Assembly: GCF_001423585.1 (NCBI RefSeq)
Contig: NZ_LMOP01000008.1
Location: forward strand, 1,377,118 to 1,441,117
Reading direction: 5' to 3'
From: Xanthomonas sp. Leaf148
GTDB lineage: Bacteria > Pseudomonadota > Gammaproteobacteria > Xanthomonadales > Xanthomonadaceae
DNA: 64,000 nt
Each line of letters begins with the position of its first letter. The stretch's first letter is position 1. Below are positions 13,783 through 52,143 of the stretch, piece by piece. The position numbers and the translations under genes are program-made. The notes beneath the pieces were generated by a model that worked only from the letters and a program-made list of their open reading frames with translations, searched no databases and had not been told where the DNA came from.

Positions 13783-14734
13783 GGCGCGCCGCCGCCGTGC
13801 GGTGTGCGTTCGAGATCGAGATCGAGGGGGCGGTGGGGCAGCCACCTGCACGGTGCTGACACTCGCAGGTTGGAAAGGCGGTTGGCGATGCGCTGACGCG
13901 ATGCGCGTGGAGGCATCCATGCGCGACCTGTCGCCGCACAACCGCCTGCATCCCGGTGCGCCGGATTTCTGACGTGAGTCGCTCGTGAGGGTCTGGGGTG
14001 TGCTCGGTGAAAAAAAATTCGACGCTCGCAACATGCATCGATGACCGATCGACGTTGCGCAACACGCTGTCGGCGATGCGCAAGCGCACCTGCATGGCGA
14101 TCGAACGGCGCAATAAGTTTGCGCATTTCTGCTCGTACGACGTCGGAAGCGGAGTTGTCGGATAAAAAATTTTCAGCTGGCGGACAGGCGGCAAGCGATG
14201 CCGCAACGCGCAGCGCATCGTCGCAGCGTTACCGCGGCCTGCATCGTGCGGATTTAGAGCGCTTGAAGAAAACAGCGGAAAAGAAGTGCTTTTTCGCTAA
14301 CGCTGTTGCGTGGGCGCGCGCTTCCAACCCATCCAGCTAGCCGCGCGCGGTGCGTTTGCCGGACGTCGATGGCGAACGTGGCGATGGTCGGCTGAAAAAA
14401 AAATGCAAAAGAGTGTTGACAGTAAAAAAAAGCGTGATTAGGTTTCGCCCAGCAGACATTGCTGCGAAAGAGAGTGAGCAGAATCGACATCGAGCCGACA
14501 CGCTTGTTCAAGACGTCCACCGAAGCACACTCAATGGTGGAGTCGGGTCCGCTTCTCTCCAAAAAAGCAGTTGTCGTTTCGACTACGCACCCGTGTCGCC
14601 GTTCGATGCGGGTGTTTCTGTATCCGTCCCGTCGCGCATTACCTGCGGACGGTACCCGACGACGGCATGCCGACGCGGGGTTTGGTTCAACTGGGCGTTT
14701 CACCTCCATAGTTCACTGACGAGGAGCCAATTAC
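13783..14734. other. Long A-tract-rich leader before the H1-like gene
   Basis: About 950 bp without a supported gene; open frames on both strands lack ribosome sites and domain signals. It contains A runs of 6-9 at 14010-14017, 14164-14169, 14395-14403 and 14424-14431, set against GC-rich DNA, which suggests intrinsic curvature. TTGACA at 14416-14421 is a candidate -35 element; no good -10 follows, the best being TTAGGT at 14438. A small hairpin with arms CACCCG and CGGGTG lies near 14590-14615. A long 5' untranslated leader of about 300 nt is possible. Confidence 0.5.
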
Positions 14735-15214
14735 ATGGCCACTAAAAAAGCTGCGAAAAAGAAACCCACCGCCAAAAAGGCAGTGAAGAAGACCGCCGCC
14801 AAGAAGGCGACCAAGAAGGTCGCTAAGAAGGCAACTGCCAAGAAAGCAGTGAAGAAGACTGCTGCCAAGAAGGCCGTCAAAAAGACTGCCAAGAAGGCAA
14901 CCGCCAAGAAAGCAGTGAAGAAGACTGCCAAGAAGGCAACCAAAAAGACTGCCGCCAAGAAGGCAGTGAAGAAGACCGCAAAGAAGGCGACCAAGAAGAC
15001 TGCCGCCAAAAAGGCCGTCAAGAAGGCCGCCAAGAAAGCAGTGAAGAAAACTGCCAAAAAGGCAGTCGCGAAGAAGGCGACCAAGAAGTCCGCCACCAAG
15101 AAGGCTGCTACCAAGAAGCCTGCTGTGAAGAAGGTCGCCAAGAAGAAGCCGGCCGCTCGCAAGAAGAAGGCCGCTCCGGTCGCGCTGCCCGCAACTCCGG
15201 CACCGCTGATCTGA
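14735..15214 (+). CDS. Histone H1-like Lys/Ala-rich nucleoid protein
   Basis: A 159-residue protein made almost only of Lys, Ala, Thr and Val in repeats such as KKTAKKATAKKAVKK, with a short tail ending PVALPATPAPLI. It has no acidic and no aromatic residues, so it is extremely basic. This matches bacterial histone H1-like (HctB/AlgP-type) DNA-compacting proteins; Xanthomonads carry such genes. A GAGGAG ribosome site lies 11 bases before the ATG and a strong terminator follows. Nucleotide repeats make the copy number prone to slippage between strains. Long open frames on the opposite strand are by-products of the repeats. Confidence 0.88.
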   Translation: MATKKAAKKKPTAKKAVKKTAAKKATKKVAKKATAKKAVKKTAAKKAVKKTAKKATAKKAVKKTAKKATKKTAAKKAVKKTAKKATKKTAAKKAVKKAAKKAVKKTAKKAVAKKATKKSATKKAATKKPAVKKVAKKKPAARKKKAAPVALPATPAPLI

Positions 15215-15667: not shown

Positions 15668-15804
15668 CAACACGACTGTGCTCACCGGCAGGCGGGCGCG
15701 GCCGGTGCTCGGTGCCGCATGGACCACACGTCCACTGCGGTTCTGAGTACGCCGTCCACACCCACCAGACGACTGCTCGCGACGTGTTGTTAGCGCTCTT
15801 GGTC
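15668..15804 (-). repeat. Dispersed repeat, copy A
   Basis: The reverse complement of this stretch matches 37562-37697. The best-aligned 105 nt (15668-15772 versus 37593-37697) show 84 identical bases by hand count. In the shared frame both encode SSGGCGRR.Q.R and VVHAAPSTGRA.L.VSTVVL. No start codon with a ribosome site is evident, so it is recorded as a repeat and not as a gene. Confidence 0.8.
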
Positions 15805-23614: not shown

Positions 23615-23694
23615 AAGCCCTTGAATCATGGCAGTTGTCTGTCATTTTTGTGATGCATACTGCAACTGACCCAGGCGTATGGTTAAATCGCGCC

Positions 23695-24303
23695 ATGAAC
23701 GACATCACCGAATCCAACCCCACCACGCCCCGTGCCAGTTCCGGTCGCGGTAATCGCCTCAGCGCGGACGATTGGGCGCAGGCGGCGCTGGACCTGATCG
23801 CCGAACAAGGCGTGAGTGCCGTCGCTGTCGAGCCATTGGCGCGTCGTCTCGGCGTCACCAAGGGCAGCTTCTACTGGCATTTCCCCTCGCGCGACGCCCT
23901 GTTGCAGGCCGCCCTGGAGCGCTGGGAAATCTTCGAGCAGAAGGAAGTCTTCGGCAGTCTGGAAGACGTTCCCGATCCCAGCGCCCGTCTGCGCGCGCTG
24001 TTTCAGCTGGTCGCCCACGAAGTCAAACCGCACGTCATCTACAGCGAACTGCTCAAGGCACTCGACCACCCGGCCGTGCGTCCGGTCATCGACCGCGTCT
24101 CGCAACGCCGCCTCGACTATTTGATCGCCTCGTTCCGCCAGGCCGGCCTCAGCCGCACCGACGCCCAGCATCGCGCCCGCCTCGCCTACGCGGCTTACGT
24201 CGGCTTCCTGCAGTTATCGCTGCAACTGCAGCAACCCAAACAGGCCCGCGAAGAATTCGAATCCTACGTCGAGCATGTGATTCAGACGTTGATTCCTGGG
24301 TAG
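23695..24303 (+). CDS. TetR/AcrR-family transcriptional regulator
   Basis: A 202-residue regulator. The N-terminal helix-turn-helix spans about residues 20-66: WAQAALDLIAEQGVSAVAVE, RRLGVTKGSFYWHFPSRDAL. A variable ligand-binding domain follows. ATG 23695 starts MNDITESN; the longer upstream extension has no ribosome site. It is divergent from the hydrolase-fadE operon across a region with two inverted repeats, so it probably represses that operon, with a fatty acyl-CoA as plausible inducer (inference). Confidence 0.9.
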   Translation: MNDITESNPTTPRASSGRGNRLSADDWAQAALDLIAEQGVSAVAVEPLARRLGVTKGSFYWHFPSRDALLQAALERWEIFEQKEVFGSLEDVPDPSARLRALFQLVAHEVKPHVIYSELLKALDHPAVRPVIDRVSQRRLDYLIASFRQAGLSRTDAQHRARLAYAAYVGFLQLSLQLQQPKQAREEFESYVEHVIQTLIPG

Positions 24304-24649
24304 AAGAGCCATCACTCAGCTGGGCGCCAGCGCTGGTTAGCTAGCGAATCAGTGCAATCATCGCATCACCCTCATGACACCGGTAGGCATCAGCTTCCGA
24401 ACTCAGCTGCATATGGGCGCAGTTCCACACTGTTAGCGGCCGATCGGCGCACTACTTAAATGGTCTCTTAAAGAGACTGTTATTTTCATTCTTGCGCAAA
24501 ATTCACGACAAGACAATTTCTTGTTAACGCATCTTTAATTTTTCCAAGTTGATAGCTACTATCGGCGTCACCTTCGTTTTGGGTTCGTTTTTCGATCCCT
24601 CGAACGGTTGTTCATCACGCCACTATCAAGATCTCGGAGAGAGAGCTCA
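24304..24649 (+). promoter_or_regulatory. AT-rich leader and promoter region of TonB receptor gene
   Basis: About 345 bp, much richer in A and T than its surroundings from 24450 on. It holds a perfect 15-bp inverted repeat GTCTCTT-A-AAGAGAC (24463-24477), CAAGA-N5-TCTTG (24509-24523), and GATAG-CTA-CTATC near 24551. These may be binding sites or transcript hairpins; no regulator is assigned. GGAGAGAGAGC lies just before the receptor start. Confidence 0.5.
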
Positions 24650-27610
24650 ATGATTTACAAGACCAGCAAGCTTCGCGATGCGATTTCGTTCGCTATCGCG
24701 GTTGGCGCTTCCGCCTCGGCACTGCCGTCAACGGCAATCGCCCAGGACGCGGGGGCGACCAACCTCGATCGCATCGAAGTCACCGGCTCGCGCATTCGCC
24801 AGGTGGATACCGAAACGGCCCAGCCGATTTTGACAGTTAGCCGCGCTGACATTGAAAAGCAGGGTTTTTCGTCGGTCGCCGACATTTTGCAGAACATCAG
24901 TGCTGTGGGTACCCCGCCAATCAGTCGCGCTTCGCCGCTGTCTTCCGGCGAAGCAGTTGGTGGCACGTACATCAGCCTGCGCGATCTCGGCGCCGCACGT
25001 ACGCTGGTCTTGGTCAATGGTAAGCGTCTGGGGATCACCACGGACGGTCTGCAGGACATCTCGACCGTTCCAGTGTCGTCGATTGATCGAATCGAGGTGC
25101 TGAAGGATGGCGCTTCTTCGATTTACGGTTCCGATGCAATTGCTGGTGTCATCAACATCATCACCCGTACCAATTTCGATGGCGCGACCGGCAGTGTTTA
25201 CTACGGCCAGTATTCGCAGGGCGATGGTGAAACGACCAATGCGGACTTCGTGATGGGCGTGACGGGCGAGCGTGGAACGCTAACCGTCGGCATCGAATAC
25301 GCGAAGGAAAACAAGGTTGCGGCTTCTGACCGTCCTTACTCTGAATTCCCGCGCTCGTCTAATCATCCGGATTTTGGTTGGACCGCAGTCGGTGAGTTCG
25401 GTGGTTTCGTGAGCCGCCCGGGTGACGCGCTTCCTAACGTCCGCTATCCGGCAGCAAGCGCAGCCAACCCCAACCGCGAAGTGCGCGTTTTGGTGCGCGA
25501 CGGTGGAAACCCCGACAACCCGGCTGACTACCGTCTTCAGAATACCGATCAGACTGTCACCCAGGACAAGACCAACACCAATCGCTGGACCGACCTGCGC
25601 ACTCCGCAGGAACGCCGCTCGTTGTTCGTCGATGGCTCTTACGACCTGACCGACAACGTGCGTTTCCGCACCAACGTGCTGTACAGCAATCGTGACTCGG
25701 AGCGCCAGATTGCGGGTTATCCGTACCAAGCGCTTGCATTCGGGTCACCGATGTCGGTGGACAGTGCGTTCAATCCACTGAATCGCGAAATTCCGAATTG
25801 GTGGCGTCGTACGACGGAAGTGCCGCGTACCACGCGTGCCGAACTGACCACCTACCGTTTCTCGGGCGCATTCGACGGGTCGTTCAATGTCGGCGACCGC
25901 ATCTTCGACTGGGATGTGGGCTATCTCTACAACAACAACAAGCTGGTGCAGAGCGGTTACGGTGATCTCAATCTGACTTCGTTGCGTGCTGCTGTGGGTC
26001 CGTCCTTCATCAACGCGTCCGGTGTCGCACAGTGCGGCTCGGCTGCGGCCCCGATCGCGCTGGCACAGTGCGTGCCATTCAACCCGTTCATTGCTGCCGG
26101 CCTGTCCGGTCCGGGTGCTTTGACCGGCAACCAGGCTCTCCAGGATTTCCTGATCCCAACCACGCATGCAACTGCGGACACCAAGACCAAGGTGATCTCG
26201 GCCAACCTCTCTGGCAGTTTGTTCACCCTGCCGGCCGGCGATCTTGGTTTTGCAGTGGGCGCTGAGCAGCGCAAGGAAGAGGGTGAGTTCAGCCCTGACG
26301 CGCTCGCTCAGTCGGGAAATACCTCCGGTTTGGCCAACTTCCCCACCGGCGGCAGTTACAAGGTCGAGGAAGTGTATGCAGAGTTCAACGTGCCGCTGTT
26401 AGCCGACCTGCCGTTCGCTCGCGAGCTTGGCCTGAGCATGGCGACACGGTACTCCGACTACAACACCTTCGGTGACACAGTGAACAGCAAGTTTGGCTTC
26501 AAGTGGAAGCCGATCCAGTCGTTGCTGGTCCGTGGTACCTGGGCTGAAGGTTTCCGCGCCCCGACCATTTCCGATCTTTACGGTGGTGGTTCACAGTCTT
26601 TCGATTCCTACACCGACCCCTGCGATGTGCAGTTTGGTGCCTCGCGTAATAGCCCTGCAGTTCGAGCACGCTGTGCTGCCGCGTTGCCGGTCAATGCCAA
26701 TACGTTCCGTCAGCAGGCCCAGGGTTTCGTGCCGACCACGGCAGCGTCCTCGCAGACACCTCTGGCGTTCCTGTCGGGCTCCAATGAAGAACTGACCCCG
26801 GAAACTTCTACCTCCAAGACCTTGGGTTTCGTATGGAGCCCGGGCTTCGTAAACGGCCTGAACGTGTCGCTCGATTGGTGGCAGATTCGCGTGGAAAACA
26901 CCATCATCGGTGACACGGCAAATCTGATCCTCAACGATTGCTACATCAACGGCATCACCGAGCGTTGCAACGCGTTCACCCGTGATCCTGTGAGCGGCAT
27001 CGTCAACACCTTGAATCGTACTTCGATCAATGCCGGCTACCGTGAGGTTGAGGGTTATGATCTGGATCTCGGTTATCGCCTGGCCACCGACTCGCTCGGC
27101 ACCTTTGGCGTCAAGTGGACAACCACTTACACCAGTCGCGACGACTTGGTGACCACCCGCACGTCCGTTACTAATCCGAACCCGCTGACGGGGGTGGGCT
27201 GGGCTGGAACGACTACGGGTACGCACTTCCGCGTTCGATCCAATGTTGCACTCAATTGGGATAAGGGCGACTTTGGTGCAAGTTGGACAATGCGTTACTT
27301 CTCCGGTTTGAAGGAATCTTGCCTTAGCGCGTCCCTGTTCCCGGACGAGTGCAGTGATCCCAACTATCGCGCGCCGAACAATCAAGGCGTTTCGATTGGC
27401 AATCCAACCAATGAGCGTGGCGCGACCGTCTTCAACGATGTTCAGGTCCGTTGGAATGCTCCGTGGAACGCGACGATCTCCGCAGGCGCAAACAACGTGT
27501 TTGATCGTGTTGGTCCGACCTTGTACAGTCAGCCTAGCGCCAACGTTTCTTACTTTGGTGGCTTCGACATCGGTCGCTTCCTGTACATGCGTTATACCCA
27601 GCGTTTCTGA
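24650..27610 (+). CDS. TonB-dependent receptor (island receptor 1)
   Basis: A 986-residue outer-membrane receptor. The signal peptide (MIYKTSKLRDAISFAIAVGA to IAQDA) is followed by the TonB-box-like LDRIEVTGSRIR. The plug contains GKRLGITTDGLQD, VLKDGASSIYGSDAIAGVIN and IITRTNFDG; a large barrel then ends YMRYTQRF with a terminal Phe. GGAGAGAGAGC precedes the ATG. The N-terminus (SKLRDA), plug and leader resemble receptor 2 at 30.2-33.2 kb, so the two are paralogs. It is followed by a terminator and then a sulfotransferase gene. The ligand is unknown; pairing with modification enzymes suggests a peptide or specialised metabolite (inference). Confidence 0.93.
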   Translation: MIYKTSKLRDAISFAIAVGASASALPSTAIAQDAGATNLDRIEVTGSRIRQVDTETAQPILTVSRADIEKQGFSSVADILQNISAVGTPPISRASPLSSGEAVGGTYISLRDLGAARTLVLVNGKRLGITTDGLQDISTVPVSSIDRIEVLKDGASSIYGSDAIAGVINIITRTNFDGATGSVYYGQYSQGDGETTNADFVMGVTGERGTLTVGIEYAKENKVAASDRPYSEFPRSSNHPDFGWTAVGEFGGFVSRPGDALPNVRYPAASAANPNREVRVLVRDGGNPDNPADYRLQNTDQTVTQDKTNTNRWTDLRTPQERRSLFVDGSYDLTDNVRFRTNVLYSNRDSERQIAGYPYQALAFGSPMSVDSAFNPLNREIPNWWRRTTEVPRTTRAELTTYRFSGAFDGSFNVGDRIFDWDVGYLYNNNKLVQSGYGDLNLTSLRAAVGPSFINASGVAQCGSAAAPIALAQCVPFNPFIAAGLSGPGALTGNQALQDFLIPTTHATADTKTKVISANLSGSLFTLPAGDLGFAVGAEQRKEEGEFSPDALAQSGNTSGLANFPTGGSYKVEEVYAEFNVPLLADLPFARELGLSMATRYSDYNTFGDTVNSKFGFKWKPIQSLLVRGTWAEGFRAPTISDLYGGGSQSFDSYTDPCDVQFGASRNSPAVRARCAAALPVNANTFRQQAQGFVPTTAASSQTPLAFLSGSNEELTPETSTSKTLGFVWSPGFVNGLNVSLDWWQIRVENTIIGDTANLILNDCYINGITERCNAFTRDPVSGIVNTLNRTSINAGYREVEGYDLDLGYRLATDSLGTFGVKWTTTYTSRDDLVTTRTSVTNPNPLTGVGWAGTTTGTHFRVRSNVALNWDKGDFGASWTMRYFSGLKESCLSASLFPDECSDPNYRAPNNQGVSIGNPTNERGATVFNDVQVRWNAPWNATISAGANNVFDRVGPTLYSQPSANVSYFGGFDIGRFLYMRYTQRF

Positions 27611-27634
27611 TAAGCAGTTCGGTTGCTTGACTTA

Positions 27635-27664
27635 AGCTACGCCCCCGATTTCGGGGGCGTAGCT
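27635..27664 (+). terminator. Terminator of island receptor 1
   Basis: A perfect 14-bp inverted repeat, AGCTACGCCCCCGA and its complement, with almost no spacer; T-rich sequence follows only after about 10 nt (GTTTTTAAA). Confidence 0.8.
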
Positions 27665-27826
27665 GTCTATGCGTTTTTAAATCAGCATCTGAGCTAGTAG
27701 GGCTCAGGCAAAGTTTTTAAACTCGGTTGAGGCTCTAATGTCTGCGGCGAATTCGCAGTATTCGTTTCAACAAGACGCATGAAGCTATGCGCTTTCTTAT
27801 CCGCCGCAATGTGAGATCATTCGGTG

Positions 27827-29617
27827 ATGCTTACGTTGCTGTCTGATCACCAAGAAAAAATGCAGGCCTGGATTCGTGACGAGGTCGTGCCCGATCTCTC
27901 AAGTGCAGCTGCTTGGTCGCGATTTGCAGAAGAGTTGCATAATGGCAAGTTACTGCTTGATGCTTGTCATGCTTATTGGCATCTGGCAAGTCTTCAGCTC
28001 AGTGAGCCCGCATATCTGATAAACATCGGCAATTTGCTGCTTGAGCTAGAGGACTTCTCGGGTTCGCTGGTAGCCTATGAAGAGGCTGTGCGGCGAGGTG
28101 CTGGGGATGAAGTGGCTTGTCATTTGGGAAAAGGGCTGGCACTGCTTTATCTGCAAAGGTACCAGCAGGCAGAAATAAGTCTTCGAAATGCTTGGCAGCA
28201 GGAGCCAGAGGCATGTGATGTTGTTCTGGCTTATTCGCAATGCTTGATGGAGCTTGAGCGATTCGACGAGATGAAATCTTGTCTTGCTCGCCTTGAGTAT
28301 TACGAAATGTCGCGTGCGCAGCGTGAAAGCTTCGCTTGGTTGCTTGCGAATTGCGGTGAAGAGCCGCGCGCGTTGGTTCTGTATAAAGATCTTCTTGATG
28401 ATACGCACGCAACGAGTGAGTTGCGGATGCAGCTTGTTCTTTTGCTTGAGAGACTTAATCGTGTGGAGGAAGCTGAAGGTTATCTGCAGCATCGAAGCGT
28501 TATTGGGAGCGAAATGTCGCCAATGAAGGCGCTCGCATTGGGGCGAATATTTCGTCGGAAAATGAAATACGAATGCGCTGAAAAATGCCTAGCTTCCGGC
28601 ATTGCAATGGTTGGAGATGGAGCAATTGGAGCGCTGCTGGAGTTCGAGCGCGCCAAGAATGCTGATGCTGGTAGCCGCTTTGACGAAGCGATGGCCGCGT
28701 TGAATCGCGGGCATGTACGCGCTGTTGCGGCATACAACCAGCGGTTTCCAGGGCAGTTGGCTGATAACGCCCTGAGATGGTTGGAAGAATCGTTGGCGAA
28801 TCCTGTTCCTTTAGCTTGGCGTAATTTAAGAAGGGGTGAGCGTTCGGAAGATCCGACATTTCTCGTGGGCTTCCCGCGATCAGGTACAACCTTGCTAGAG
28901 CGCATATTGGACGCGCACCCAGGTTTTGCGGTATTGGATGAGCGTCCGGCGTTAGAAGAGGCCATCGCTAGCCTGCGCTCAAGTAAGCATTTTGCCGAAC
29001 CGCAACTAGATGATTGGCTGACTGCACTCTCTGACGATCAGATCGGTCGGGCGAGAGGTTGTTATTATGCAGTTGCCGCCAAATACATCTCTCTAAAGCC
29101 GAGTCTGATCGATAAGTACCCTTTGAATCTGACGCGAGTTCCTTACATTGCGCGAATATTTCCGCGTGCGAAGTATATTTTTCTCTTGCGGGACCCCCAC
29201 GACTGCGTGCTGAGCTGTTACATGCAGGCATTTGGCATGCGTGGAGGTGCTCTTTCATTTGCAACGTTGGAAGCTTCCGCGGAGACTTATGTAAATGTGA
29301 TGTCTCACTGGGAGCGTCATAGAGCATTGGCAAACGCCCATGTCCAGGAGGTTCGTTACGAAGATCTGGTGAATGACATGCCTTTGCATGTCTCTGCACT
29401 CTTAGACTTCCTGGAGTCAGAGTGGGACGACGCCATGGCAAATTTTCGGGAGCATGCCATGTCGCGATCGACACGAATCAACACGCCGAGTTATGCCCAG
29501 GTTATCGAGCCGATCAATGGTCGAGCAATTGGGCGGTGGGAAAATTATCGACACCATTTCTCGCAGCGTACGCTAACTCTTCTCGCGCCATGGCGTCGCC
29601 GTTATGGCTACGATTAG
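27827..29617 (+). CDS. TPR-containing sulfotransferase
   Basis: A 596-residue protein. Residues 1 to about 330 are helical TPR-like repeats (INIGNLLLELEDFSGSLVAY, LGKGLALLYLQRYQQAE). A sulfotransferase domain follows, with the PAPS 5'-phosphosulfate loop FLVGFPRSGTTLLERIL near residue 350 and the 3'-phosphate site KYIFLLRDPHDCVLSCYMQ. YEDLVNDMP and GRAIGRWENYRHHF are typical of the family. The substrate is unknown; related TPR-sulfotransferases resemble tyrosylprotein sulfotransferases. The start is uncertain: GTG 27824 or ATG 27827. Base composition is clearly lower in GC than neighbours (27 of 60 G+C at 28561-28620), suggesting transfer. It ends exactly where the convergent oxygenase ends. 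Confidence 0.88.
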   Translation: MLTLLSDHQEKMQAWIRDEVVPDLSSAAAWSRFAEELHNGKLLLDACHAYWHLASLQLSEPAYLINIGNLLLELEDFSGSLVAYEEAVRRGAGDEVACHLGKGLALLYLQRYQQAEISLRNAWQQEPEACDVVLAYSQCLMELERFDEMKSCLARLEYYEMSRAQRESFAWLLANCGEEPRALVLYKDLLDDTHATSELRMQLVLLLERLNRVEEAEGYLQHRSVIGSEMSPMKALALGRIFRRKMKYECAEKCLASGIAMVGDGAIGALLEFERAKNADAGSRFDEAMAALNRGHVRAVAAYNQRFPGQLADNALRWLEESLANPVPLAWRNLRRGERSEDPTFLVGFPRSGTTLLERILDAHPGFAVLDERPALEEAIASLRSSKHFAEPQLDDWLTALSDDQIGRARGCYYAVAAKYISLKPSLIDKYPLNLTRVPYIARIFPRAKYIFLLRDPHDCVLSCYMQAFGMRGGALSFATLEASAETYVNVMSHWERHRALANAHVQEVRYEDLVNDMPLHVSALLDFLESEWDDAMANFREHAMSRSTRINTPSYAQVIEPINGRAIGRWENYRHHFSQRTLTLLAPWRRRYGYD

Positions 29618-30280
29618 TCAGCGTTGCGGGAAGCGGAGGTAGGTGGAAAGTATGTATTTGTCTCCACTATGCGGTGGCCTGCCTTGGTGGGCGTACATCC
29701 AATATGGTGGAAACATTAAAAGCCTGCCGGCTCTCGGTTCGACGCCGTAGTTCAACCCTGGAAACCAAGTTTCGCCGCCTTCCGATACATTGTTGAGATA
29801 CCATAGAAAAACCATGTATCGATCGGATACGTTGTTTATGGAGTCGAAATGTGTCTGGAAGCGTTCATCGCTTCCTGCACGATAGCGCTTGAGAATCAAC
29901 GGGCTTAGTAGCGGGCTGTCGGGGACAGCAATGTCTAGGTCTACTTCCGTGTTGTAGCGCTTGAGCTCCTCGCTGATCAGCGAGCGGAAGAATCCAAGAA
30001 AAGCACTATCGGACAATTTGGAGATGTCCAATTCCGTCCAGGAACTTTCTTCCAGACCTTGGCGAATGCCCTGGCCATTTCTTTCGTGAAATTCGCTGAG
30101 CGCCTCAAAAGAGTCGACCAGTTTGGCGCACAATTGTGCTGACAAACTATTGTCTTTTATTCGAATGAAATGCCGAAGGTGACCCGGAGAGGAGGATGCC
30201 GCAGAAGCGGCATCCTCCTTTTCCTTTTTCAGATCAGAATCGTGCAGTCCAGCGCATCCAGTAGTACCTGCCGATGGCAT
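29618..30280 (-). CDS. 2-oxoglutarate/Fe(II) oxygenase, prolyl-4-hydroxylase type
   Basis: About 220 residues if ATG 30280 is used. The conserved core begins FIRIKDNSLSAQLCAKLVDS near residue 38. The iron ligands HxD are in FQTHFDSINN and the distal His is in MYAHQGRPPHSGDKYILSTYL, with the Lys that binds 2-oxoglutarate. YMVFLWYLNN and GGETWFPGL are typical of the P4H family. The start is unclear: ATG 30280 overlaps the end of receptor 2 by 47 bp, and no standard start lies between the receptor stop and the conserved core. Low GC (27 of 60 at 30001-30060). The substrate is unknown; peptidyl proline or a small metabolite are options. Confidence 0.82.
   Translation of the reverse strand: MPSAGTTGCAGLHDSDLKKEKEDAASAASSSPGHLRHFIRIKDNSLSAQLCAKLVDSFEALSEFHERNGQGIRQGLEESSWTELDISKLSDSAFLGFFRSLISEELKRYNTEVDLDIAVPDSPLLSPLILKRYRAGSDERFQTHFDSINNVSDRYMVFLWYLNNVSEGGETWFPGLNYGVEPRAGRLLMFPPYWMYAHQGRPPHSGDKYILSTYLRFPQR
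30190..30230 (+). terminator. Strong hairpin; plus-strand terminator, intercistronic on the minus strand
   Basis: A perfect 13-bp stem AGGAGGATGCCGC/GCGGCATCCTCCT with a 4-nt loop is followed on the plus strand by TTTCCTTTTT. In that direction it is a good intrinsic terminator, about 570 nt beyond the sulfotransferase stop. On the minus strand it lies between receptor 2 and the oxygenase core, with no T-tract after it. Confidence 0.8.
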
Positions 30281-33161
30281 CGTAGGTCCGCAAGTCGGTG
30301 GAGGCATTGAAGCCGGAATAAACCAGTGGCGGCTGCCGATCTGCCAGGTTGCGAACACCGATTTGAATCGTACTGTTGTTCAACGACTCAAGGCGATACC
30401 CGAGCTGGAAGTCCGTCTGGGTGTAGGAGGGGACCTGACGCTTGGCCACGTAGCCGTCTGTACCTACTTCGGCGACGTCCGGTGCCTCGTTGACGTGGTG
30501 GACATACCGAGTTGTCAGGCTTGCATTTAGATTGCCATAGGTCCAGGTCAAATCGTTAAGCGCGCGCCAGCGCGCGATATTCCCGAAGCCCGAAGATGCA
30601 GAGTCAACGAACGTGCCGGCGAGTCCCTTGCTTTCCGGAATGCCTGGGAATGCTCCCACGTCGCTGGTCGGGTCTCCTGACAACAGACGAACGTCGTACT
30701 GACGGATATATGTTGTATCGAGATTCCACGAAAGCTTGCCCCACGCAGCTTCCTGAGTGGTGTAGCGGAACCCGAGATCGACGCCGCTGGTCCGCAGCTC
30801 ACCAAAGTTGCCAATCACGTTCGTCATTTGCGCAACGTCACCTGCTTCGTCGCGAATGAAGGTGTCGCAGTAGCGGCCGAATTGGTAGCACTGGTTCAGC
30901 ATAACGGTTTCTGGAAGATTGGTAATGAACTGATCCAGGCTTACGCGCCAGTAGTCAGCGGTTACGCTAAACCCTTCGAGCCAGCTCGGGCTATACACGA
31001 AACCATATGTGAAAACATCGCCTTCCTCTGGTTGAAGGTTCGGGTTTGAGACCTGGAAAGAGGTTACCTGGTTGTTGCTCTGACGGAAGGATCCGTCAGG
31101 CGCAACACCTGCACAGGCGCGCGGGTCGGCCGTCGTCTGGCCCGAGTAACCGTTACAAGGATCGACATAGCTATTTGCGCTTGGCGCTGTAGGTGAAAAC
31201 AGGTCGCCAATCGTAGGTGCGCGGAAGACGTCTGCATAGGTGCCGCGGATCAACAGATCGGAGAACGGCTTCCATTCCAGCCCGATTTTCGAGTTGTTGG
31301 TGCCGCCGAAATTTGAGTAATCCGAGTAACGGGTTCCCAGTGTCAGATTGAGCTTCTCTGCGAAAGGTGCGTCGGTCAACAATGGGATCAGTAATTCAGC
31401 GTAGATTTCGTTGACGTCAAACTTCCCAGAAATATCACCAAACGTACATGCTTCCTGCGTGGTCAAGCAGACAGTTTCGCCAGGCGGAATGATCGTGAGG
31501 AAATCGCTGGTCGAACTTGCTGACTCTTCGCGTCGCTCCACGCCAACCGCCAATGAGACGGTTCCTGCGGGGATATCAAATAGGTCACCTGTCGCGTTGG
31601 CATTGAAAACCTTAAGAGTGTTTTCGTTGGTATTGGTAATCGTTGGATTGATCAGGCCAAGCGCAGTCAACTGAGCCTGGCCTACAGCCGTGCTTGCATT
31701 GGGTGCGGGGCCAAGGAAGTTGACCGGCAAGCAGCCATTGATGGCCGTGGCCGGGTTACCTGGCGTCCGGACGCAAATAGGATTTCCGGTTGCAGGATCG
31801 ATCATGGACGGGCCAAGTGCCGCCGTGAGGCCAGGGCTGAACAAATACCCTTTCACCGAGGATGACTGTGGCGAACGGCCGTACCCGTACGACGCATCCC
31901 AACTCCAGCTGCTGTCACCAAACGCACCGCGAAGGCCTCCGGTAATCTGGTAGGTCTCCGTTACGAAGCGGGTTGTGCGCGTGGGGATGAAGTCACGAAG
32001 ACGCAGGCGCGCGTCCGTGATATCGACCCCGAAGGGGTTGTAAAGACTATCTGCGCTGATCGGAACGTCATCGACTGCAGGTCGGCCATCAAACGGCAGA
32101 GGTGCCAGTGCAAAGGAGGACTCGGTCCGCAGCCACGAGCCAAGCACAAACGCTTCGACGTTGTCACTCAGCTTGTAAGTGCCGTTCATGAAGAGGCTGG
32201 TCCGCTCCTGCGGTGTCAGCGTCAAATTTCCATCGGCCTGATAGTTGTAAACATCGGTTTGCGGGTTGAAGCAACGAAAGTCCGACGGTGACGAGCCAGG
32301 ACGTCCATCGATTCGCGTAAGAGTAACGTTCGCGCCAGCGCCACAATTGGGATCAGATAAATTGACGCCAGCAGCATTCCCACGCGGCACGACATAGCGG
32401 CCAGTCAAAATGCGGCTGGTCCCACCAATGCCTTTCTCGCCAGCGTAGAGTTGATAGGGCTGGCTTGAGTAGGTTCGATCTGCCGCACGTACTTCTTCTG
32501 CTTTGTCGTAGCTTGCGCCTAGCATCAGGCTGCCATGATCGTTTGTCATGCCGAAGACGGCGTCATACCGCTCAGTCGACGCGTCACCACGTGACGATGT
32601 TCCGTAGTAGGCGCTTGCTTCAACGCCGTCGAAATTTTTGCGAAGAATGAAGTTGACGACGCCGCCAATTGCGTCAGAGCCGTAGATTGCCGATGCGCCA
32701 TCCTTCAGCACCTCGACGCGCTCAATGAGACCTAGAGGGATGGAGTTGATGTCCACCGCGCCGTTCGCATTGCTGACAGTGCCAATCCATCGCTTACCGT
32801 CGACCAAGACGAGTGATCGGTTGACGCCAAGTCCGCGCAGATCAATTGTAGCCGCGCCCGCGCCGCCGCCATTGTTGACCTGAGGATTGGTAGCGGCGCC
32901 GGCAATGGCAGGCGTGCGCTGGAGAAATTCGCCGACCGTTGCCGCGCCGGAACTCTGGATCGTTTGACGATCAATCACGAATACGGGGCTAGAAGTCTCC
33001 AGATCAGCGCGCTTGATGCGTGATCCGGTCACTTCAATTTTGTCGAGGTTGGTTGTTGTACCAGCGGATGTGTCCTGTGCGAAGGATGTTGATGAATAAG
33101 CTCCTCCGACGACAAGCGCAAGTACAACGGCGTCACGCAGCTTGCTTGACGTGCACTTCAT
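30234..33161 (-). CDS. TonB-dependent receptor (island receptor 2)
   Basis: A 975-residue outer-membrane receptor. The start at 33161 is chosen for the GGAGAGAGAGC site and the signal peptide MKCTSSKLRDAVVLALVVGG ending FAQD. TonB-box-like LDKIEVTGSRIKR, the plug GEFLQRTPAIAGAA, ERVEVLKDGASAIYGSDAIG and GVVNFILRKNFDG follow; the barrel ends YWMRWTARF. It is paralogous to receptor 1 (same leader, SKLRDA, plug). The oxygenase gene follows closely on the same strand, so the two are probably one transcript, with a hairpin in between that may give unequal expression. Confidence 0.93.
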   Translation of the reverse strand: MKCTSSKLRDAVVLALVVGGAYSSTSFAQDTSAGTTTNLDKIEVTGSRIKRADLETSSPVFVIDRQTIQSSGAATVGEFLQRTPAIAGAATNPQVNNGGGAGAATIDLRGLGVNRSLVLVDGKRWIGTVSNANGAVDINSIPLGLIERVEVLKDGASAIYGSDAIGGVVNFILRKNFDGVEASAYYGTSSRGDASTERYDAVFGMTNDHGSLMLGASYDKAEEVRAADRTYSSQPYQLYAGEKGIGGTSRILTGRYVVPRGNAAGVNLSDPNCGAGANVTLTRIDGRPGSSPSDFRCFNPQTDVYNYQADGNLTLTPQERTSLFMNGTYKLSDNVEAFVLGSWLRTESSFALAPLPFDGRPAVDDVPISADSLYNPFGVDITDARLRLRDFIPTRTTRFVTETYQITGGLRGAFGDSSWSWDASYGYGRSPQSSSVKGYLFSPGLTAALGPSMIDPATGNPICVRTPGNPATAINGCLPVNFLGPAPNASTAVGQAQLTALGLINPTITNTNENTLKVFNANATGDLFDIPAGTVSLAVGVERREESASSTSDFLTIIPPGETVCLTTQEACTFGDISGKFDVNEIYAELLIPLLTDAPFAEKLNLTLGTRYSDYSNFGGTNNSKIGLEWKPFSDLLIRGTYADVFRAPTIGDLFSPTAPSANSYVDPCNGYSGQTTADPRACAGVAPDGSFRQSNNQVTSFQVSNPNLQPEEGDVFTYGFVYSPSWLEGFSVTADYWRVSLDQFITNLPETVMLNQCYQFGRYCDTFIRDEAGDVAQMTNVIGNFGELRTSGVDLGFRYTTQEAAWGKLSWNLDTTYIRQYDVRLLSGDPTSDVGAFPGIPESKGLAGTFVDSASSGFGNIARWRALNDLTWTYGNLNASLTTRYVHHVNEAPDVAEVGTDGYVAKRQVPSYTQTDFQLGYRLESLNNSTIQIGVRNLADRQPPLVYSGFNASTDLRTYDAIGRYYWMRWTARF

Positions 33162-33299
33162 GGGCTCTCTCTCCGTGTAACGGTTAGGTTGGCCTGGCAG
33201 GCGGGTCCGAAACAGCGGTCCCAAAGCGTCAGGGTGAACCGATGGTATATGGCTGTCCCTAAAAATTAAAGTCCCGTTAAATTTTGCTCCCATGAACGA

Positions 33300-33327
33300 A
33301 AACGCCACCATATGTGAAGGTGGCGTT
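33300..33327 (-). terminator. Terminator downstream of the 33.35-34.22 kb gene
   Basis: A 9-bp stem AACGCCACC/GGTGGCGTT with a 9-nt loop, followed on the minus strand by a short T run (TTTTCGTT), 22 bp past the stop. Confidence 0.75.
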
Positions 33328-33349
33328 ATGACTTCAGAATGGAAGAAAA

Positions 33350-34219
33350 TTAAAGGTCTTGCTCATACCTGACATAAGGAATGGTGCCGTCGCTGTTGCT
33401 CTCGTTGTTGGGAGCGAACGGGTTCTTGCCGCGGGAGATGACGTTCTCCGCGCCCACTGTCAACTGCCCGCTCCAGGGGGTGCGCCAGGTCAGGCCAAGG
33501 CCCAGGCCTTCCCATTTTTCCGGCTGGCCGGGGACATCGACGACGCGGCCGATGACATTGGCGCTGAAGGCGCCGTAGCCGCCACCGACGCTGAGCGTCT
33601 TGCTGTCCCACTGGTCGGCGATGGCCGGGGAGACGTCAGCCAGCGGGACCAGACGCGCACGGGCGTAGGTGCCGCCAATCGAGACAAAGCCTTCGCGCCC
33701 GATGTTCTTCTGGCCGAAAACGGTCAGGTCGTTTTGCTCCACGCGGGTCAACGGTGCCTTGCCGGCGCCGATCAGCCAGGCGGGCAGGGTGTCGCGACCG
33801 GCACCTGCGGTGACGCCGACGCGGCCACTGCCACGGTTGAAGCCCAGCGTGCCGGAGACGCGACGCGACGCGGCAGCGCTGTCTTCTTCATCGTCGCCGA
33901 TGCCGGCCAGCAGGCAGTGACTGGCGAGGCCGCTGATGTTGGTGCCACGGCTGCTATTGCAGAGCAGGCCTAAGGAATCGCCCGAGGTCATGCCAAGCGC
34001 AGCATCCAGCGAATTACGGCCGAAATGCCAGCGCGCGCCGGCCTTCTGCTCGCCGGTGGGTTCCAGGTACAGAAACGCTTCCACCTTGCCGCTGCCCTTG
34101 TTCCACACCGGCAGGATGGTGCTCTCGCGCAACTGCTGGGATGCCGACTGCGCATGCACACCCGTAGCTGCCGCAAGGGCAACCAGCAAAGCGAGCGGAA
34201 GGCGCAGAAGGTGTCGCAT
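33350..34219 (-). CDS. Exported, probably outer-membrane protein of unknown function
   Basis: 289 residues with a clear signal peptide (MRHLLRLPLALLVALAAATG ending VHAQ). The mature part alternates hydrophobic and polar residues and is rich in Gly, Ser and Asn (SGTLGFNRGSGRVGVTAGAG, LSVGGGYGAFSANVIGR), as in small beta-barrels. It has two Cys residues (LLCNSS, SHCLL) and an acidic patch IGDDEEDS. I do not recognise a domain. It stands alone between hslO and the island, with its own terminator. Confidence 0.7.
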   Translation of the reverse strand: MRHLLRLPLALLVALAAATGVHAQSASQQLRESTILPVWNKGSGKVEAFLYLEPTGEQKAGARWHFGRNSLDAALGMTSGDSLGLLCNSSRGTNISGLASHCLLAGIGDDEEDSAAASRRVSGTLGFNRGSGRVGVTAGAGRDTLPAWLIGAGKAPLTRVEQNDLTVFGQKNIGREGFVSIGGTYARARLVPLADVSPAIADQWDSKTLSVGGGYGAFSANVIGRVVDVPGQPEKWEGLGLGLTWRTPWSGQLTVGAENVISRGKNPFAPNNESNSDGTIPYVRYEQDL

Positions 34220-37561: not shown

Positions 37562-37697
37562 CCTAAGAGTGCCTAAAAAATGTAGCGAGTACTCGTCAGG
37601 TGGGTGCGGACGGCGCGCTCAGGACCGGCATGTACCAGTGGTACATGCCGCACCGAGCACGGGTCGTGCCCTCCTGGTGGTGAGCACAGTCGTTCTG
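37562..37697 (+). repeat. Dispersed repeat, copy B
   Basis: Matches the reverse complement of 15668-15804. This copy contains a perfect palindrome at 37626-37650 with arms CGGCATGTACCA and TGGTACATGCCG. It lies between the convergent CBS and AsmA genes. The shared frame can be read from an ATG at 37545 but runs into AsmA, so it is not called as a gene. Confidence 0.8.
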
Positions 37698-43232: not shown

Positions 43233-43352
43233 TCACCATCGAGACCGGCGGAGGGACAGGCCCTTTGATGCCGGGGCAGCCAGCGGAGCGCGCAAGCGCC
43301 CGCGTTTGGTGCCAAATCCTGCGGGGACCTCCGCGTCCGCCGAAAGATGGTT
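43233..43352 (+). ncRNA. SAM-I (S-box) riboswitch upstream of metX
   Basis: The P1 helix pairs ACCATC (43235-43240) with GATGGT (43346-43351). Core motifs in order are GAGACCGGCGGAGGGA, GGCCC, TTGATGCCGGGGCAGCC (kink-turn and P2), a P3 hairpin GCGGAGCGC/GCGCCCGC with a GCAA loop, GGTGCCAAATCCTGC, and AAGATGG closing P1. This is the conserved SAM-I aptamer. It would turn off the met operon when SAM is abundant. Downstream, GAGCT-N7-AGCTC (43381-43397) could be part of the expression platform. Confidence 0.92.
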
Positions 43353-43424
43353 CGAATCGTGCCTTGCGCACCTCGAACGCGAGCTCCCGCGAAGCTCGAT
43401 GGCCGATCCACCCCGGATATCGCC

Positions 43425-51505: not shown

Positions 51506-51542
51506 TAAAAAAGCGGCGGACCCGACGAGGTAGTCCGCCGCT
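51506..51542 (-). terminator. Terminator of the YceI-cytochrome b561 operon
   Basis: A perfect 10-bp stem AGCGGCGGAC/GTCCGCCGCT with an 11-nt loop, followed on the minus strand by TTTTTTA. Confidence 0.93.
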
Positions 51543-51573
51543 CAGTGGCCGCGTCCGGTTGCGGCCTGTGGCC

Positions 51574-52143
51574 TTACTTCGCCTTCAACACGACCTTGGT
51601 GCTGATCGCGGTTTCGTTGGGGATGGTCTTGGTGTCGGCCCAGTCGCCACCGCCCACGCCGAAGTCCAGCCGCTTCACCAATGCCTTGCCGGCCAGCACG
51701 GGCTGCGCGCCCGGTGTCCAGGTAAAGGTCAGCGTGACCGGCTTGCTGACGCCGCGCAGTTCCAGGGTGCCGTCGGCCGCGTACTGATTGCCGCCGAGCG
51801 CACGAAACTTGTCGGCGCGATAGCGCGCGGTGGCGAACTTGGCGACGTTGAAAAAGTCCGGGCCTTGCAGGGTCGAATCGCGATCGTTATTGCCGCTGAT
51901 CGCGCTGGCCAGCGGGATGCGCACATCGAGCTTGGCCGCGGCCAGATTGGCCGGATCGAAACTCAGCGTGGTATCGAAACCGGGGAACTTGCCGGTGAAT
52001 ACTTCGCCGTCGTACTTGCTGGCGAACACCAGCGACGAGCCGGGCGCCTGGACGTAGTCGGCGGCCAGCACCGGCGCGGTGGCGAAGGTGGCGACCAGCG
52101 ACGCGGCGACCAGCAGGGGAGAGGCGAACAACTTGGAAGACAT
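51574..52143 (-). CDS. YceI-family periplasmic lipid-binding protein (1)
   Basis: 189 residues. The signal peptide (SPLLVAASLVATFATAPVLA) precedes a lipocalin-like YceI barrel: SSLVFASKYDGEVFTGKFPG, ATARYRADKF, GTLELRGVSKPVTLTFTW and LDFGVGGGDWADT. YceI proteins bind isoprenoid or amide lipids; several are encoded with cytochrome b561. It is the last gene of a three-gene minus-strand operon. Confidence 0.93.
   Translation of the reverse strand: MSSKLFASPLLVAASLVATFATAPVLAADYVQAPGSSLVFASKYDGEVFTGKFPGFDTTLSFDPANLAAAKLDVRIPLASAISGNNDRDSTLQGPDFFNVAKFATARYRADKFRALGGNQYAADGTLELRGVSKPVTLTFTWTPGAQPVLAGKALVKRLDFGVGGGDWADTKTIPNETAISTKVVLKAK

Follow-up and report, generated by a model that had tools for sequence, protein, structure and literature searches.

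What do a sulfotransferase and a prolyl-hydroxylase-like oxygenase act on when their genes stand between those of two outer-membrane receptors? This question is raised by a four-gene island in a 64,000-nucleotide stretch of contig NZ_LMOP01000008.1 from Xanthomonas sp. Leaf148, referred to here as the window. On the + strand lie a TonB-dependent receptor of 985 aa (rec1, 24653..27610) and a sulfotransferase of 597 aa with tetratricopeptide repeats, TPR (ST, 27824..29617). On the − strand lie a prolyl-4-hydroxylase-like, 2-oxoglutarate (2OG)- and Fe(II)-dependent oxygenase (OX, 29618..30280) and a second TonB-dependent receptor of 975 aa (rec2, 30234..33161). This order and these strands are as described in an earlier note made from the letters of the DNA. 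ST and OX converge, and no base separates their 3′ ends. OX was assigned the ATG at 30280 because Met at this position is nearly invariant among 43 OX sequences, so the gene shares 47 bases with the 3′ end of rec2.

The answer we favor, quite possible if short of probable, is that the two enzymes modify the rec2-type receptor polypeptide itself, with OX likely acting at Pro356. It is based on the co-occurrence of the genes, the conserved catalytic residues of the enzymes, a coupling between OX and particular receptor residues, and the swap-in of the genes at a fixed site in Xanthomonas.

A recurrent module of receptor, sulfotransferase and oxygenase

Relatives of the island genes were followed in a survey of 297 family genomes, a survey of 35 Xanthomonas genomes, and a scan of named genomes in which 79 loci were kept from 365 confirmed stretches; 108 further ST loci were fetched later. 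Loci and genomes carry L- and G-numbers, respectively. Among the 297 family genomes, 70 have an ST at E ≤ 1e-30; among the 35 Xanthomonas genomes, 6 have one at E ≤ 1e-20. The named loci include those of X. pisi, X. codiaei, X. cucurbitae and X. melonis, and the module is also present in several Stenotrophomonas, Pseudoxanthomonas, Luteimonas, Silanimonas, Dokdonella, Dyella and Vulcaniibacterium as well as many metagenome-assembled genomes (MAGs). A more distant version with a different gene order occurs in a genome recorded as Xanthomonas sp. NCPPB 1128 (L096).

Among the named loci, a TonB receptor is present in 64 of 79, at most 2.5 kb from ST in 63, and OX is present in 49. The later ST loci behave likewise, with a receptor in 95/108 and within 2.5 kb of ST in 93/108. 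The OX query gave 44 matches in 36 of the 297 genomes; each of the 44 has an ST no more than 6 kb away, and for 24 the distance is at most 50 bp. When rec2 was the query against the same genomes, the 19 best-scoring receptors each adjoin an ST and the next one (G158:C19:211721) does not, as seen by comparing the tables by eye. Gene orders vary widely, which argues against mere inherited synteny. Rec2, ST and OX thus form a recurrent module, and their grouping is not chance, the outcome that the earlier note had named as fatal to its idea and for which it had proposed this neighborhood check.

The pairing of rec1 with ST and of rec2 with OX, read by the note from the near-mirror layout, did not hold up. 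Both enzymes accompany rec2 elsewhere, rec1 occurs alone at the site in two Xanthomonas genomes, and rec1 is a separable passenger of the module. The two receptors are paralogous, as was claimed, in the wide sense that both score above the cut-offs for PF07715 and PF00593 (Plug and TonB-receptor barrel), but beyond residue 182 they are just 20–44% identical per stretch. Directly after rec1, a GC-rich inverted repeat (27636-27663) followed by a T-rich stretch was read by eye; it looks like a rec1 terminator, separating rec1 from ST.

ST has the domains Sulfotransfer_3 and TPR, and its best solved relatives in the PDB are protein-tyrosine sulfotransferases (TPSTs; E 1.7e-17 to 3.9e-16); a single match of lower significance is to a polyketide-synthase domain. 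In 12 aligned sequences RSGTT, Asp372-Glu373, Lys431, Arg456 and Ser464 are invariant. The catalytic domain, tyrosylprotein-sulfotransferase-like, therefore contains a 5′-phosphosulfate loop and a catalytic Glu that aligns with the Glu-Glu pair of TPST, and we take the loop and the Glu, Lys, Arg and Ser positions to have the roles of their TPST counterparts. OX has a 2OG-FeII_Oxy_3 domain; all seven of its PDB profile matches are prolyl hydroxylases (prolyl 4-hydroxylases), and the HxD and distal His of the iron triad and the 2OG-binding Lys are invariant in the 43 sequences. Reading by eye, with no predictor used, revealed no export signal in either ST or OX.

Two other families recur most beside the core genes. 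ASPH-type proteins, with TPR and Asp_Arg_Hydrox (PF05118) domains by profile, are found in 29/79 named ST loci, and XOO1806-family genes lie one gene away from the core in 23/88 loci (e.g., L078, L083, L106 and L130). In L042, a methyltransferase gene sits between OX and a TPR-Asp/Asn beta-hydroxylase gene. No small open reading frame (ORF) that could encode a peptide substrate is widely shared in the gaps within 3 kb of the core among the named loci; the largest group of small ORFs near the core comprises six loci and is located in flanking genes. A published description of this module was not found in the literature searched, which covered few subscription journals.

Further ST-like genes were seen on the way. 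The genome of the window has a second, distant TPR-sulfotransferase-like gene (L034, 8296-9888, +) beside a TonB receptor gene on the opposite strand, and many of the 108 later loci (e.g., L204, L215, L228 and L252) have one to several extra TPR-sulfotransferase-like paralogues beside the module. In L051, L060, L068 and L118, ST, OX or the receptor is in pieces while the other module genes are open, as if from module decay or poor assembly.

Receptor residues that accompany the oxygenase

Receptors were classed as OX+ or OX− according to whether OX is present at their locus. The first set analyzed, 60 module receptors (47 OX+ and 13 OX−), gave 191 columns that are at least 90% conserved in the OX+ receptors, and by Fisher test the four most OX-associated of them were D358, R250, P356 and Y439 of rec2. 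D358 and R250 each occur in 46/47 OX+ vs 5/13 OX− receptors, P356 in 47/47 vs 7/13, and Y439, which follows OX better than ST, in 47/47 vs 8/13. The motif around P356 and D358 is A-P-L-P-F-D in OX+ receptors (A353-D358 of rec2; codons at 32088..32105, −), and mostly APLPFF, APLPLI, APAVYG or APSLAD in OX− receptors. The codons of R250 and Y439 are at 32412..32414 and 31845..31847, respectively, both on the − strand.

The prediction that OX+ receptors keep P356 and D358 together was written down before the 108 further loci were fetched. These loci supplied 82 new receptors, as 11 of 93 were removed for being >95% identical to earlier ones and near-duplicates among the new ones were retained. 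Both residues are present in 12/12 new receptors with OX in the region vs 1/70 without. The scripted count gave 11/12, the missing case (L190) being an alignment gap where the sequence reads SILAPLPFDGRP. The lone exception without OX in the region, L213, is near a contig end, and OX is on another contig of the same genome. A genome-wide OX search of the 70, run last for the half of the prediction that concerns genomes lacking OX, found OX elsewhere for 9, including L213, and among those from genomes without any OX found, 0/61 keep the two residues.

Residue counts cover receptors of at least 850 aa other than seven distant sphingomonad-type ones; L077 was left out of two early tallies and then counted. 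In the combined set with L190 corrected, OX+ receptors have P356 in 59/59, D358 and R250 each in 58/59, and Y439 in 57/59, and OX− receptors have them in 50/81, 5/81, 5/81 and 9/81, respectively. In contrast to the invariant P356, the nearby position 354 of OX+ receptors is P in 48, A in 10 and S in 1.

On a tree of the combined set, from which L213 (contig end) and L281 (divergent) were also left out, OX− receptors fall in two large lineages (27 and 46 receptors), Silanimonas, a group of L106, L117, L130 and L206, and the single receptors L077 and L046. L046 lacks OX at its locus and keeps the motif, with OX elsewhere in its genome. Among the other five OX− lineages, four lost D358, to differing residues, and L077 kept the motif.

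Some genomes contain two module-type receptors, which serve as natural internal controls. In each of G361, G546, G597, G551, G463 and G586, one receptor is OX+ with A-P-L-P-F-D and the other is OX− without the motif. Such pairs include L194/L290, L196/L294 and L193/L295, the L193 receptor being a near-duplicate outside the new-set counts.

R250, P356-D358 and Y439 would be placed in three successive outer loops, as read solely from the strand pattern, in which the turns NDHG, SDN and GDSS alternate with long loops. For a tie between OX and this face of the receptor the residue patterns are good evidence, though not decisive. Two residues were also considered as targets of the other enzymes and ruled out: Tyr439 as a general target of ST, since ST-linked receptors have Leu, Phe, Glu or Ser there, and Asp358 as a target of ASPH, since Dyella-type receptors near ASPH carry Gly.

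A receptor-exchange site in Xanthomonas

The island of the window occupies a site that is bordered on the left by a TetR-family regulator gene (23635..24303, +; Pfam TetR_N), outside the module, and on the right by an XOO1806-family gene (33350..34219, −; NCBIfam NF052276). Both border genes are present in 35/35 Xanthomonas genomes and flank one site with differing contents. The module occupies it in 6 genomes, rec1 only in 2 (L141, 97%, and L163, 91%), and one other TonB receptor in 25, which in L164 is in two pieces. Of the remaining two, L160 has no receptor, and in L158 the site is filled by about 9 kb of different sequence that includes receptor pieces. The XOO1806-family protein, standing beside differing kinds of receptor here, may be a receptor partner.

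The start of rec2 has other close relatives than the rest of the gene. Residues 1–30 have 57–74% identity to resident Xanthomonas receptors and 31% to a Stenotrophomonas module receptor (L059). From residue 31 onward the identity to L059 is 69–92% per stretch, and similarity in DNA begins near codon 37. The segment matching resident receptors by blastn and stretch-wise identities, consisting of the leader and signal-peptide region, spans 33053..33280 (−), with the junction near 33053. The receptor-less site of L160 retains a 94-base relic of the leader. By these comparisons rec2 is a mosaic, and the mosaic start, the differing occupancy and the leader relic together indicate a receptor-exchange site. 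Entry of the module by recombination near the start of a resident receptor is the most likely course.

The island was earlier proposed from its low GC to have been transferred as a unit. The low GC extends well past the two 60-base samples then cited, as the block 24304-33349 has a GC fraction of 0.549 vs 0.648 for the remainder of the window, and the 1-kb windows from 24001 to 33000 have 0.51–0.60 vs 0.61–0.71 for the others, except 14001-15000, which likewise has 0.55. GC alone is not enough, and as proof of recent transfer it was set aside, core genes being lower in GC than their neighbors in many genomes. The best evidence of transfer as a unit is the mosaic start of rec2 together with the patchy presence at one site.

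Other features of the islands and the window were also recorded. One Xanthomonas island has an extra 5.5 kb between rec1 and ST (L162, 4099-9647), where the matching locus L057 has a 684-aa ORF. By Rfam, the window has copies of the small RNA sX9 at 15719-15795 (+) and 37571-37646 (−), the small RNA Xoo2 at 51507-51584 (−) and a SAM riboswitch at 43233-43353 (+); the presence of Xoo2 and sX9 makes the window Xanthomonas-like.

Candidate substrates and known relatives

If the receptor is the substrate, ST and OX would act on its polypeptide before export. Both enzymes would work in the cytosol on the unfolded receptor chain, possibly docking on it through the TPR part of ST, and OX would likely hydroxylate Pro356 in the A-P-L-P-F-D loop. 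TPR-Asp/Asn beta-hydroxylases, where present, would supply a third modification. The modified loops would face outward and could alter what the receptor binds. A polypeptide substrate is favored because the solved relatives of the enzymes, protein-tyrosine sulfotransferases and prolyl 4-hydroxylases, act on polypeptides and because Asp_Arg_Hydrox proteins with TPR occur at some loci. As no small ORF is widely shared, the receptor is favored as the shared polypeptide, although the substrate may instead be encoded elsewhere.

Several observations weigh against this proposal. No Tyr column of the module receptors tracks ST, ST-linked receptors show no enrichment of acidic-Tyr sites (1.70 per 1000 aa vs 1.07, 4.48 and 2.95 in three comparison groups), and receptor Asp/Asn columns track ASPH weakly, with no clear match. 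Among 20 comparison receptors chosen as module-free, 4 lie close to an ST-family gene of a different subtype. P356 itself is still present in most OX− receptors (50/81), and L077 keeps the whole motif with no OX found. Basal in the 46-receptor lineage, L103, L114 and L129 still align Asp and R250 but lost P356, and L092, inside the L106 group, reads APLPLI despite a nearby OX. Eight of the nine new receptors with OX only elsewhere in the genome are without P356 and D358, as is L130; from the eight, the link is to an adjoining OX rather than to any OX in the cell.

The residue coupling also comes from few independent events on the tree (7 OX changes and 4 D358 changes). A phylogeny-aware fit of the first set was weak, with p of 0.014–0.02 for R250 and D358. 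The fit of the combined set gave p of 0.0016 for R250 (rank 2/85) and ranks of 6, 11 and 16 for D358, P356 and Y439, none being significant after correction for the 85 columns; the value for Y374 (likelihood ratio, LR, of 159.7) was set aside as a numerical failure. Finally, a receptor whose loops bind an OX-made ligand would be expected to show the OX coupling just as much.

The last point leads to a close rival, which we also consider possible. Here the enzymes would tailor the ligand of the receptor, a sulfated and hydroxylated peptide or small metabolite that is released and retaken, and R250, P356, D358 and Y439 would recognize the hydroxylated ligand; this is near the alternative of the earlier note, that the enzymes act on host-derived or receptor-bound compounds. 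TonB receptors bind ligands through their outer loops, and the OX-linked residues lie in stretches read as three successive ones. Peptidase-like genes are near the core in two loci, encoding an X-Pro dipeptidyl-peptidase (L074) and a DUF885 protein (L067). A possible related use of such enzymes on a peptide is found in Pontixanthobacter, where Table 2 of PMC10040529 has a run of numbered gene clusters with lasso peptide biosynthesis B2, two sulfotransferases and an aspartyl beta-hydroxylase. Against ligand tailoring, the named loci lack a widely shared small ORF near the module, and the most recurrent neighbors of the core are ASPH and XOO1806.

Modification of the receptor itself can be taken a step further. 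The outer loops may carry hydroxyproline (at Pro356) and sulfotyrosine, eukaryote-type side-chain modifications set by enzymes of the receptor's own transferable module. Each receptor exchange at the chromosomal site would then import the matching modification chemistry; we regard this fuller version as doubtful.

A lead to the ligand comes from sister receptors. A clade close to the module receptors is made up of nine of the 20 comparison receptors, which have 43–45% identity to rec2; one of the nine (L166) belongs to the window's own genome. In 8 of the 9 loci (L166-L170 and L172-L174) a gene of the GH127 beta-L-arabinofuranosidase family lies within one or two genes, the contig of the ninth being short. 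Two other comparison receptors adjoin gamma-glutamyltranspeptidases or an M61 peptidase (L175 and L171). Beta-L-arabinofuranosidases of the GH127 kind serve the breakdown of arabinosylated hydroxyproline-rich plant glycoproteins, according to an excerpt of PMC7263609. The GH127 genes beside the closest ST-free receptors are a hint that the ligand derives from hydroxyproline-rich glycoproteins of plants.

The same catabolic neighbor would suit a reading in which the enzymes act in the cytosol on an imported nutrient, as the first steps of its use. This is unlikely. The relatives of ST and ASPH act on polypeptides, and sulfate transfer from 3′-phosphoadenosine-5′-phosphosulfate (PAPS) is a costly, anabolic step. 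Moreover, GH127 is not found at E ≤ 1e-20 among the called genes of the earlier module loci, the 108 later loci being outside this search.

The note had likened the pairing of sulfation and hydroxylation to tyrosine-sulfated, hydroxyproline-bearing signals such as plant PSY and its Xanthomonas mimic RaxX; on that model the module would produce a similar peptide to imitate a plant hormone. ST does resemble protein-tyrosine sulfotransferases, and PSY1, according to an excerpt of PMC10043930, carries both types of modification, with sulfotyrosine, hydroxyproline and arabinosylated hydroxyproline. However, no peptide gene was found near the module in the named loci, ST is in just 6/35 Xanthomonas genomes, and the module genes reach Silanimonas, Dokdonella, Vulcaniibacterium, Luteimonas and many MAGs. 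The habitats of Vulcaniibacterium and Dokdonella are presumably not plants. The proposal of such a signal is thus unsupported and seems very improbable.

Neighboring genes without any functional link are barely credible as an explanation, since rec1 is indeed separable but chance grouping of ST, OX and rec2 is refuted by the 44/44 OX within 6 kb of ST, the 93/108 later ST loci with a receptor at most 2.5 kb away and the many gene orders.

Few bacterial proteins are known with hydroxylated or sulfated side chains; if the module does modify its receptors, outer-membrane receptors would be added to them, and the module-encoded enzymes would be a new bacterial way to tune receptor recognition. Recognition of ligands, phages or bacteriocins could then hinge on the supply of oxygen, 2-oxoglutarate and PAPS. 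We know of no substrate for the bacterial TPR-sulfotransferases, and the module offers a testable home for a large set of them, with A-P-L-P-F-D as a defined peptide.

The module can be compared with several known systems. RaxX-RaxST is the sulfated peptide system of Xanthomonas and likewise has a sulfotransferase gene, whereas ST pairs with a TonB receptor, and no adjacent shared peptide gene was found in the gaps within 3 kb among the named loci. GH127-linked TonB loci have receptors close to rec2 in sequence, whereas module receptors have ST and OX instead, and GH127, the sole enzyme family searched for, was not found in the earlier module loci. TPST1 and TPST2 of animals share with ST the full length of the catalytic domain in the PDB alignment, the RSGTT loop and the conserved Glu, Lys, Arg and Ser; this is a likeness in sequence, and ST differs in its N-terminal TPR part, its setting in a bacterial receptor module and the lack of a receptor Tyr that follows it. 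ASPH shares TPR and Asp_Arg_Hydrox with proteins of 29/79 named ST loci, which are bacterial versions and lie outside the four genes of the island. Prolyl 4-hydroxylases have the same 2OG-FeII_Oxy_3 domain, HxD...H and Lys as OX. A prolyl hydroxylase of Pseudomonas hydroxylates EF-Tu, as stated in an excerpt of PMC4543633. OX forms its own subfamily, lies near ST throughout the family survey, and has a loop of an outer-membrane receptor as its predicted substrate.

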